Position numbers and translations under genes: made by a program. This document shows positions 1,424 through 4,320 of a stretch of DNA of 64,000 nucleotides, piece after piece; the stretch's first letter is position 1, and every line of letters begins with the position of its first letter. The stretch is from an uncultured Acidimicrobiia bacterium. Its GTDB lineage: Bacteria > Actinomycetota > Acidimicrobiia > Acidimicrobiales > CAIXPF01. The notes below the pieces were generated by a model. It did no database searches, was not told the origin of the DNA, and saw nothing but the letters and a program-made list of their open reading frames with translations. Location of the stretch: NCBI GenBank assembly GCA_903921205.1, contig CAIXPF010000106.1, positions 1 to 64,000 of the forward strand. Direction: 5' to 3'.

Positions 1424-2542
1424 TCAGGCGGTGGCGCACACGCCGGCGAGGCTGGCGATGGCGCTGTCGCGGCGGGGCTGGCGGACCTCGTTGCGGTCGA
1501 GGCCGTTGGTGAGACAGGCGAAGGACAATCCCGTCGCCGGGTCGGCCCAGACGATCTGGCCCTTGGCGCCGTTGTGGCCGAACGCGCCGGGGGACAGCGT
1601 CCGGCCCATGCCCCGGAAGTTGGAGCGGCCGTCGTCGCCGGCGAGGATCATCCCCAAGCTGCGGTTGGCCGGCGTGCGGGTGAGCGGGTCAGGCAGGTGG
1701 TTGCGGACGTTCGTCTTCGCGTCGTGCAGCACCGCAGGGTCCCACAAGCCCTCGCGGTTGTGCAGCAGGGACTGGTAGAAGCGCACGATCTGGTCGGCCC
1801 GGGCGATGCCGCCACCGCCGGGCACCCCCACGGCCCGGGCGGCCGGGTCGTTGAAGCCGAGCAGCACCGCGTCGTTCACCTCGCCGGCGGGCAGCTCACG
1901 GATGCCGAAGGTGGCCTCGAGCTCGTCGGGGGTGGCCGGGTCGCCCACCACCTGCAGGGTGGCGATGTCGTGCTGGTCGGCCTCGGCGATGCCGAGCACC
2001 CGCCCGATGCCCAGCGGTGTGGTCACCCGGCGTTCGAGCTCGTCGCGGTAGTCCCCGCCGGTCACCGTGTCGATCAGCTCGGCCAGCACCCAGTGGGCGG
2101 CAGTCGGGTGGTATTCGTAGCGGGTGCCCGGCTCCCAGCTCAGCCGCCAGTTGGCCATCGCCTCACGGCGCAGCTGCCGGTCCGCCCAGCGGGGCGGCCC
2201 GAGCGGGGCGTACGGAAAGCCCGAGGTGTGCAGCATCACCTGCTCGAGGGTGATGTGGTCCTTGCCGTTGGCCCCGAACTCCGGGAAGTAGCTGACGATG
2301 CGCTCGGTCGGGTCGAGCAGCTTCTCGGCGATGAGCTGCCAGACCACCGAGGCCACGAACACCTTGGTGGCGGAGAACATGACGTAGCGGGTGTCGTTCG
2401 TGGCCTCGCCGTAGGTCTCGTGGGCGATGACCTCGCCTTCGAAGCCGAAGGCGAACTGGCAGGAGGTCAGCAAGCCCTCGTCGACCTCGCGGCGCACGCG
2501 GTCGCGGAGCTTGGCCAATGCGGTCTGGTCGATCGTTGCCAT
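1424..2542 (-). CDS. Serine hydrolase, beta-lactamase/class C esterase family
   Basis: Penicillin-binding-protein-like serine hydrolase of 372 residues. The SxxK catalytic motif is SATK at residues 57-60. A Tyr motif (YEYHPTAAHW) lies near the middle and the third-motif equivalent GHNGAKG lies near the C-terminus. No signal peptide is visible, so it should be cytoplasmic, like many EstB-type esterases of actinobacteria. It is the first gene of a minus-strand pair with the tandem CaiB gene and is divergent from the UGSC unit. Family members act as esterases, lactonases or amidases; the substrate here is unknown. The position next to CoA-transferases suggests work on acyl esters, but that is only context. 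Confidence 0.85.
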   Translation of the reverse strand: MATIDQTALAKLRDRVRREVDEGLLTSCQFAFGFEGEVIAHETYGEATNDTRYVMFSATKVFVASVVWQLIAEKLLDPTERIVSYFPEFGANGKDHITLEQVMLHTSGFPYAPLGPPRWADRQLRREAMANWRLSWEPGTRYEYHPTAAHWVLAELIDTVTGGDYRDELERRVTTPLGIGRVLGIAEADQHDIATLQVVGDPATPDELEATFGIRELPAGEVNDAVLLGFNDPAARAVGVPGGGGIARADQIVRFYQSLLHNREGLWDPAVLHDAKTNVRNHLPDPLTRTPANRSLGMILAGDDGRSNFRGMGRTLSPGAFGHNGAKGQIVWADPATGLSFACLTNGLDRNEVRQPRRDSAIASLAGVCATA

Positions 2543-2638
2543 CGGTTCGGTCCCCCTCGCCCGCCCACTTCCCTAGCGTGCGGAGAGCGGCAGCGTAGAA
2601 CCGTGCCGACCGACACGCACGCAGCGGCGAGCGGTGGA

Positions 2639-2673
2639 CCGGTAACCGGTATCCTTCGGCGTCGAGCAGGAGG
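2639..2673 (+). promoter_or_regulatory. Probable promoter region and ribosome binding site of the UGSC unit
   Basis: A -10-like TATCCT lies at 2650-2655. A small palindrome, CCGGT-A-ACCGG (2639-2649), abuts it and could be an operator. A strong Shine-Dalgarno sequence, GCAGGAGGA, ends 7 nt before the ATG at 2681. No good -35 box is visible. The region is shared with the divergent serine hydrolase. Confidence 0.4.
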
Positions 2674-2680
2674 AACCCCG

Positions 2681-3223
2681 ATGAGCATCACCATTGTCGA
2701 TCCGAGGTCTGCGCCGGGCGCGCAGATCGAGCCGTACACCTTGCATGCCGACCTCGGGGTCGACGGTCTGAGCATCGGGTTGCTGGCCAACGGGTTCCCC
2801 GACTCGGTGGCCTTCCTCGACCAGGTGCAGGTGGCGCTGGCCGAGGCCCTTCCTGGAGCCACCTTCCACCGTTGGGACAAGGGCGACGCCTCGTCCGTGG
2901 CCTCGCCGAAGATGCTCGAGGAGATGCGCGGGAGCTGCCACGCGGTCGTCGCCGCCTACGGGCATTGAGGCAGCTGCACCACCGGCACCGTGCGTGACGG
3001 CGTGAACCTGGCCCGCATCGGCGTCCCCGCCGTGGCCCTGGTCAGTACCGAGTTCTGGTCGCAGGGCAACTTCATCGCCCGCTCCGTGGGGATGCCCGAC
3101 GTCCCCCGGGTGGCCTTCCCCCACCCCGTGGCCGGTGCGGGCACCGCGAACATGATCCGCGTCGCCGGGCTCATCCGCGACGACATCATCGCCGCCCTGA
3201 GCGGCGGGAGCCGGACCTCATGA
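2681..3223 (+). CDS. UGSC-family selenoprotein: in-frame TGA read as selenocysteine 96
   Basis: Reading starts at ATG 2681, behind a strong ribosome binding site. It runs 95 codons to a TGA at 2966-2968 and continues in the same frame for 84 more codons to a real TGA at 3221-3223, giving 180 residues. The TGA is followed directly by Gly-Ser-Cys, which is the U-G-S-C motif that names the UGSC family of (seleno)proteins. The part after the TGA is ordinary coding sequence (for example GVNLARIGVPAVALVSTEF) with the same codon bias. Its stop overlaps the next ATG by 4 nt. U-x-x-C resembles a thiol/selenol redox pair, so an oxidoreductase role is likely but unproven. Standard gene callers would split it into a 95-residue ORF and a short GTG-started remnant. 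Confidence 0.87.
2966..2968 (+). other. Selenocysteine (UGA) codon
   Basis: In-frame TGA at codon 96 of the UGSC gene, preceded by Tyr-Gly-His and followed by Gly-Ser-Cys. Decoding would need SelA, SelB, SelD and tRNA-Sec; none of these is encoded in this window. Confidence 0.83.
2988..3000 (+). promoter_or_regulatory. Candidate bacterial SECIS apical stem-loop
   Basis: CCGT (2988-2991) can pair with ACGG (2997-3000) around the loop GCGTG. The stem begins 19 nt after the UGA, and the loop holds the G-U step typical of SelB-binding bacterial SECIS loops. Beyond an A-C mismatch, one C-G and one G-U pair can extend it. The stem is short, so this is only a candidate. Confidence 0.4.
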
Positions 3224-4320
3224 GCGGGGCGATCGACAGCCGGCTGCACGCTGCCGACGAGATGGCAGCCCTGGAACTGCTGCACGAGCTGGGTTGCACC
3301 GATGGCCTACCCGTCGTGGTTCCCACGCCCGAGCGGGTCGAACGGATGGTGGTCGCCACGGGTCTTCCGGCCGACGTGTCCCTCGGGGCGATGGGCCCCA
3401 ACCTCGGCGACGCGACGATCGAGAAGATCGCCGCCTGCGCGGTGATGGCCGGCTGCCTGCCCGACCATCTTCCGGTGGTCCTGGCGGCGTTGCAGGCGGC
3501 GATGGACCCCCGTTTCGACCTCACCGAGATGCAGGCGACGACGCACTGCATCGCGCCGTTCCTGATCGTCAACGGCCCGGCCCGCCATGCCTGTGGGCCC
3601 ATTGCCTCCGGGTTCGGCGCGCTGGGTCCGGGGCACCGGGCCAACGCGTCGATCGGCCGGGCGCTGCGGTTGTGCATGATCAACATCGGTGGGGGACGCG
3701 CCGGATCGTCGGACATGGCGCTGCTCGGCCATCCCGGCAAGTTCACCTTCTGCATGGCCGAGGACGAGGACTCCTCGCCGTTCGTGCCCCTGCACGTCAG
3801 CCGAGGCTTCGCCCCCGAGGATTCGGTCGTGACGCTGGTGGGCACCGAGGCTCCGCACTCGGTGATCTTCGTCGGTGACGCCGACGATCCGACTGCCTCG
3901 GACCGGCTGGTGAAGACCCTGGCCATGACCCTGGCCAATGTCGGCTCGAACAACGCCCACTTCGGACGGGGCAGCGCGGTGGTCATCCTGAACCCCGACC
4001 ACATCGGTGTGCTGGCTGCGGCGGGCTACGACCGTACGTCGCTGGCCGAGGCGCTGGCCGAGCGTGCCGCCAACCCCCGGGCCCTGATGCACGAGCTGAA
4101 CCCGTCGATGGTGCGGGCGGGCCGATCCAGCGACGCGGATGACCTGGTACGGGTGTTCCGCTCGCCGGAGGAACTGGTCATCATTGCCGGCGGCGGGTCG
4201 GGTCTGTACTCGATGGTCCTGCCGTCGTGGGGCGCCGGTCCCCATGTCAACCCGTCGGTCAGTGCCCGTATCGAGCTCGACCAGGCTTGCGAGATCCCCG
4301 GGATGAGCCCGCTTCGGTGA
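3220..4320 (+). CDS. Conserved protein of unknown function, partner of the UGSC selenoprotein
   Basis: 366 residues starting at ATG 3220, overlapping the selenoprotein stop as ATGA, so the two should be translationally coupled. I do not recognise a named domain. The protein looks soluble, with no signal peptide or clear membrane helix. It has several Cys in conserved-looking contexts: ELGCTDGLPVVVPT near residue 30, MAGCLPDHLPV, TTHCIAPFLIVNG, HACGPIASG, LCMINIGGG and FCMAEDED. There are also Gly-rich turns such as IAGGGSGLYSMV. The overlap and the Cys content suggest a redox partner or second subunit for the UGSC protein. That is inference from context. Confidence 0.8.
   Translation: MSGAIDSRLHAADEMAALELLHELGCTDGLPVVVPTPERVERMVVATGLPADVSLGAMGPNLGDATIEKIAACAVMAGCLPDHLPVVLAALQAAMDPRFDLTEMQATTHCIAPFLIVNGPARHACGPIASGFGALGPGHRANASIGRALRLCMINIGGGRAGSSDMALLGHPGKFTFCMAEDEDSSPFVPLHVSRGFAPEDSVVTLVGTEAPHSVIFVGDADDPTASDRLVKTLAMTLANVGSNNAHFGRGSAVVILNPDHIGVLAAAGYDRTSLAEALAERAANPRALMHELNPSMVRAGRSSDADDLVRVFRSPEELVIIAGGGSGLYSMVLPSWGAGPHVNPSVSARIELDQACEIPGMSPLR

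Follow-up and report, generated by a model that had tools for sequence, protein, structure and literature searches.

The analysed stretch of DNA (the window, 64,000 nucleotides) corresponds to contig 106 of the source assembly, which comprises 4.36 Mb in 208 contigs, and its forward strand carries a predicted UGSC family selenoprotein gene at 2681..3223, with 180 residues plus stop and selenocysteine (Sec) at residue 96. The ATG at 2681 lies 6 nt behind a Shine-Dalgarno-like AGGAGGA (2668..2674, forward strand) and opens 95 codons (2681-2965) that run up to an in-frame TGA (2966-2968, forward strand). Directly 3' of it stands GGC AGC TGC for Gly-Ser-Cys, which completes the U-G-S-C motif (2966-2977), and the 84 sense codons behind the TGA (Gly-Ser-Cys and 81 more) end at the stop TGA 3221-3223, overlapping by ATGA (3220-3223) the ATG of the next gene. 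This layout, from which the initial annotation had proposed a selenoprotein, was confirmed from the sequence. The next gene (3220..4320, forward strand) encodes a 366-aa protein of an unnamed family, hereafter the partner, which is homologous at all four UGSC loci of the source genome. The pair is flanked by genes for a beta-lactamase-like protein, a CoA-transferase and an enoyl-CoA hydratase. A 464-codon ORF (window 1574-2968, forward strand), antisense to the beta-lactamase-like gene and in the same frame as UGSC, passes through the UGSC start and ends at the TGA, offering a false start that a gene caller may choose.

The read-through product matches the Pfam UGSC family PF24696 over residues 5-174 with 138.8 bits (cut-off 25) and an E-value of 2.6e-40, i.e., the profile of the joined protein extends over 170 residues and spans the TGA. 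With 101.6 bits (E 3.8e-29) it missed the equivalog cut-off of 125 bits of NCBIfam NF041046, and we therefore file it under PF24696, outside that equivalog; a pipeline relying on that cut-off would leave the window gene unnamed. Motif and PF24696 match agree with the earlier assignment to the UGSC family, which is already known and functionally uncharacterised. The subfamily of the window member has the motif GHUGSCT[TS]GTVRDG, and UGAC and UGGC also occur among family copies.

Amino acid identity to three orthologs (L203, L091 and L088) is 75, 65 and 60% after the TGA vs 56, 50 and 46% before it. The second half, whose intactness had been held against a nonsense mutation, is thus conserved at least as well as the first; simple pN/pS ratios, which are crude and saturated for distant pairs, were kept out of the evidence. 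Homologs exchange Sec and Cys, as the family motif U/C-G-S-C expresses, and the ortholog L092 has TGC at codon 96, while the two halves were not found as separate genes in any ortholog. The existence of Cys copies in the family could suggest that 2966-2968 should read TGC or TGT and that the TGA is a nonsense mutation, a sequencing error or the mark of a recent pseudogene. This explanation is hardly credible, since an independent congeneric genome has this TGA in its ortholog (L202), and it recurs in seven further orthologs from other genera and phyla (L203, L087-L091 and L140), in the three paralogs of the source genome, whose four UGSC genes have one TGA each, and in 129 of the 137 copies of the family whose motif can be read; in addition, the codons of the hairpin described below are frozen.

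The initial annotation implied a Sec machinery in the genome, and tRNA-Sec (66 bits, anticodon TCA), selA, selB and selD were all found there, on other contigs than the window. The selD gene (L204:2128-3081, G000:C67) itself encodes a selenoprotein, with GAGUACK and an in-frame TGA. The genome also encodes one or more PrdB-like proteins with U-P-V-C; at L173 (G000:C139, around 69361-69732) a PrdB-like selenoprotein with an in-frame TGA reads VPVUPVCHQS, and two more PF07355-like matches are located on C126 and C115. Among the matches listed for genomes of the class, SelB, taken at E < 1e-70, accompanies TGA-type UGSC in 79/84 genomes vs 2/11 with the Cys type only (Fisher p 8e-8). An in-frame TGA alone would also permit a genome-wide reassignment of UGA to another amino acid or read-through by a near-cognate tRNA, but the UGSC and partner genes both end in TGA and the Sec machinery is complete, so that we give such recoding practically no weight. 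The PF24696 match, the Sec machinery, the Cys ortholog and the unsplit orthologs support the proposal that the TGA encodes Sec, and on this comparative sequence evidence the window gene is one for a UGSC-family selenoprotein in which UGA 96 specifies Sec.

Directly behind the UGA the window gene has a hairpin with a G(U) apical loop, the feature by which a bacterial SECIS is recognized. Its core CCG g CAC [CGUGC] GUG a CGG (2982..3000, forward strand; loop 2989-2993 with GU) begins 13 nt behind the UGA. The hairpin is short and imperfect, Rfam, run to an E-value of 10 around the TGA, returned no SECIS and nothing else relevant, and the 55-nt segment beginning at the UGA folds less stably than its shuffled versions (z +2.1); as energy alone is not significant, the argument rests on codon conservation. 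Codons 102-106 (GGC ACC GTG CGT GAC) are identical in 8/8 Sec orthologs, whereas codon identity is seen in 0/17 of the other columns with a fixed residue and 4-6-fold degeneracy (p 7e-4), and the Cys ortholog has GTT CGC in place of the GTG CGT of the Sec orthologs. Plain GU-loop hairpins are found in the paralogs of the source genome and in most of the UGSC family. In the Cys/Trp-type Sec copies the loop starts with G-U in 104/104, all 104 form the five inner pairs, and 95 form the sixth as well. At pair 21-27, 59 copies have C-G and 45 have G-C, a family-wide covariation in which a Val/Leu codon adjusts its silent third position to the Cys/Trp codon opposite. Seven comparable Cys copies (L027, L028, L037, L050, L094, L104 and L105) have C throughout in place of the loop U (T in the gene), a position at the end of a Ser or Cys codon, and pair 21-27 is lost in 4/7. 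Together these seven genes illustrate, as a natural series, the loss of the SECIS that follows a change from Sec to Cys.

The UGSC gene is closely tied to the partner gene. At the UGSC loci of the source genome the partner lies downstream (window), upstream (L018 and L019) or is fused (L021). The fusion gene (L021:1489-3216, G000:C204) encodes a single 576-residue protein with the partner behind UGSC in frame, and an extra partner copy after it (C204:17950-18906) brings the genome total to five partner and four UGSC genes. In the class, UGSC occurs in 106 of 296 genomes, the partner in 105 and both together in 103 (p about 1e-73), leaving UGSC alone in three and the partner alone in two. A scan of named genomes yielded 80 partner loci, nearly all with UGSC adjoining, from Actinomycetota, Chloroflexota, Pseudomonadota, Rokuibacteriota, a Natrialba and others. 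UGSC lies on the same strand for 145/151 partner genes, 94% of these at most 300 nt apart, and four of the six partner genes without a same-strand UGSC are near contig ends. Twelve fused UGSC-partner proteins of two sequence types were found, and among distant relatives of the window subfamily only UGSC and the partner are common, the other neighbours being variable. By these patterns UGSC and partner lie in one operon here and belong together as a conserved unit in bacteria and haloarchaea alike, and the fact that almost every UGSC gene adjoins or is fused to the partner points to an undescribed two-part enzyme. The partner, labelled 'hypothetical protein' in public plasmid records, matched no family in Pfam, NCBIfam or the PDB, singly or as an 80-member set, and profile comparison revealed no relation between UGSC and partner. 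A resemblance of the partner to LarA (13.7 bits in a single-sequence search) was gone with the 80-member profile and was rejected.

In 44 cases, all paired with the U-G-S-C-x-x-C subfamily of UGSC, the partner has an N-terminal C-x-T-C domain, whose PDB matches are thioredoxins (E 1e-7) and which is unrelated to UGSC by profile comparison. A trxB gene lies near the UGSC/partner pair on plasmids of Variovorax and Roseovarius, and an Arthrobacter plasmid has the order trxB-trxA-partner-UGSC; the partner of the window has neither a thioredoxin domain nor a trx gene beside it. The proposed two-part enzyme would probably be driven by thioredoxin. Adjacency and fusion alone cannot separate a subunit from a helper, and the partner could accordingly be a chaperone, a maturation factor or a regulatory factor for UGSC instead of a catalytic or substrate-binding subunit. 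We regard such a role as improbable in view of the strong conservation of the partner (invariant Asp, Glu and Arg, near-invariant Cys and Asn-Gly-Pro positions), its frequent fusion with UGSC in one chain and the thioredoxin domain that it bears itself in one subfamily.

The recurrent neighbours of the pair are CaiB CoA-transferase, TctC receptors (uptake), enoyl-CoA hydratase, SDR and acyl-CoA dehydrogenase. Some other neighbours were noted as well. A phosphosulfolactate-synthase-like gene is located near Cys-type pairs in the archaeon Natrinema zhouii (L207) and the actinobacterium Arthrobacter ERGS1:01 (L210), and genes of the PEP mutase/isocitrate lyase family recur near UGSC at L206 and L207. 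In a Henriciella MAG (L157:7687-9855) the gene after the pair encodes a protein combining pyridine nucleotide-disulphide oxidoreductase and AIRS domains, an arrangement that resembles selD fusions.

The structure model of UGSC (pLDDT 96, pTM 0.90) predicts a doubly wound alpha/beta topology in which Sec96 follows strand 88-94 and precedes helix 97-112; a fused UGSC-partner protein was modelled with pLDDT 95 and pTM 0.94. The fold search gave Rossmann/flavodoxin-like matches, which with the fused model were filled by the UGSC domain. The PDB entries so retrieved (YsxC, azoreductase, a flavodiiron protein, PurE and a chain of the MCR activation complex, Z about 9-11) share a common arrangement, and no family was inferred from them. 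By hhalign, UGSC aligned with GrdB and PrdB-like proteins with a score of 59.0, Sec over Sec, vs at most 20.9 in 60 column-shuffled controls. Since the E-value applies to one template and the match covers about 60-70 residues (about 61 columns), this indicates remote homology of the Sec segment and not family membership; hmmscan found no match to PF07355 (GrdB/PrdB) at E up to 10. The partner proved unrelated to GrdB by profile and matched neither the GrdE/PrdA family nor any other in Pfam; a pyruvoyl mechanism like that of those enzymes is therefore not implied.

The thioredoxin link, the kinship with GrdB/PrdB, the structure and the gene context together suggest a Sec reductase that is driven by thioredoxin and has a small acid or its thioester as substrate. 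With Sec at UGA 96, as the SECIS and the host machinery indicate, we think it rather probable, on the whole, that UGSC and partner constitute a two-part Sec reductase fed by thioredoxin. The two would be subunits, sometimes domains, of one enzyme, in which UGSC would provide the doubly wound alpha/beta domain with Sec where the third strand ends and the helix starts, in a segment related to GrdB/PrdB, and the partner would bind and present a small substrate, with a carboxylate or an acyl-CoA pathway intermediate as the probable kind. The selenolate would attack the substrate and the selenium would be left oxidised or as an adduct, to be restored by thioredoxin in cis if the partner has a thioredoxin domain and otherwise in trans. 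The U-x-x-C redox pair proposed by the initial annotation stands only in part: the second Cys is usual, but three of the 137 copies with a readable motif (L098, L116 and L118) are UGSS with Sec kept and Cys replaced by Ser, and the Sec-Cys pair therefore cannot be essential everywhere. A role of Sec as the nucleophile, regenerated by thioredoxin, fits all copies including these.

The same selenoprotein and partner could instead form an oxidoreductase that acts on peroxides or disulfides or detoxifies xenobiotics, without reductive cleavage of a metabolite. Thioredoxin coupling fits such an enzyme equally, and U-x-x-C selenoproteins are for the most part regarded as redox proteins. We consider it unlikely, although a serious competitor, as catabolic genes recur beside the pair (CoA-transferases, acyl-CoA dehydrogenases, TctC uptake proteins), the modelled UGSC fold does not look thioredoxin-like and the nearest characterised relatives by profile are GrdB and PrdB. 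Returning to the Sec reductase, we advance more tentatively, as a possibility that we would not yet favour, that UGSC and its uncharacterised partner make up a widespread and so far undescribed class of two-part selenoenzymes, a third branch of the GrdB/PrdB-type Sec reductases, fed by thioredoxin and serving the breakdown of small acids in bacteria and haloarchaea.

The UGSC family has been known since 2007-08. UGSC selenoproteins were described from ocean and freshwater metagenomes, in which the family ranks among the more abundant selenoprotein families (PMC2398784), and reviews list the family without a function (PMC9312934, PMC13188914); the parts of these papers and of PMC5029168 that we consulted do not mention the partner. 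In the literature searched, with most subscription journals excluded, we found no report of the pairing, the thioredoxin fusion or the GrdB/PrdB link. As far as can be judged from sequence comparison, what is new is thus not the selenoprotein family but its near-obligate unnamed partner, the fusion with thioredoxin and the link to GrdB/PrdB. The expectation that standard annotation misses the gene or divides it was borne out elsewhere in the family: the Paracoccus ferrooxidans copy is recorded as two 'hypothetical proteins' and the Acidovorax T1 copy as its first half only. Both are Sec-type genes on plasmids (L206 on p2-T1 of Acidovorax T1, L208 on pFER4 of Paracoccus ferrooxidans) split at the TGA, and selB lies near the pFER4 copy. 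The pairing provides annotators with a rule for finding copies that are now split or missed by pipelines, and the partner, the thioredoxin link and the remote kinship with GrdB/PrdB make the function of UGSC testable.

Two known systems invite comparison. GrdB and PrdB, the Sec subunits of glycine/betaine/sarcosine and proline reductases, have a remote profile similarity to UGSC with Sec on Sec, and thioredoxin reductase genes lie in grd operons, as they do nearby at some UGSC loci; unlike GrdB/PrdB, the UGSC pair is found in Acidimicrobiia-like actinobacteria, proteobacteria and haloarchaea. The thioredoxin-like U-x-x-C selenoproteins (Prx-like, Trx-like, DsbA-like) resemble UGSC in the U-x-x-C of most of its copies and in the thioredoxin link, whereas UGSC is predicted to be a doubly wound alpha/beta protein with Sec behind the third core strand.
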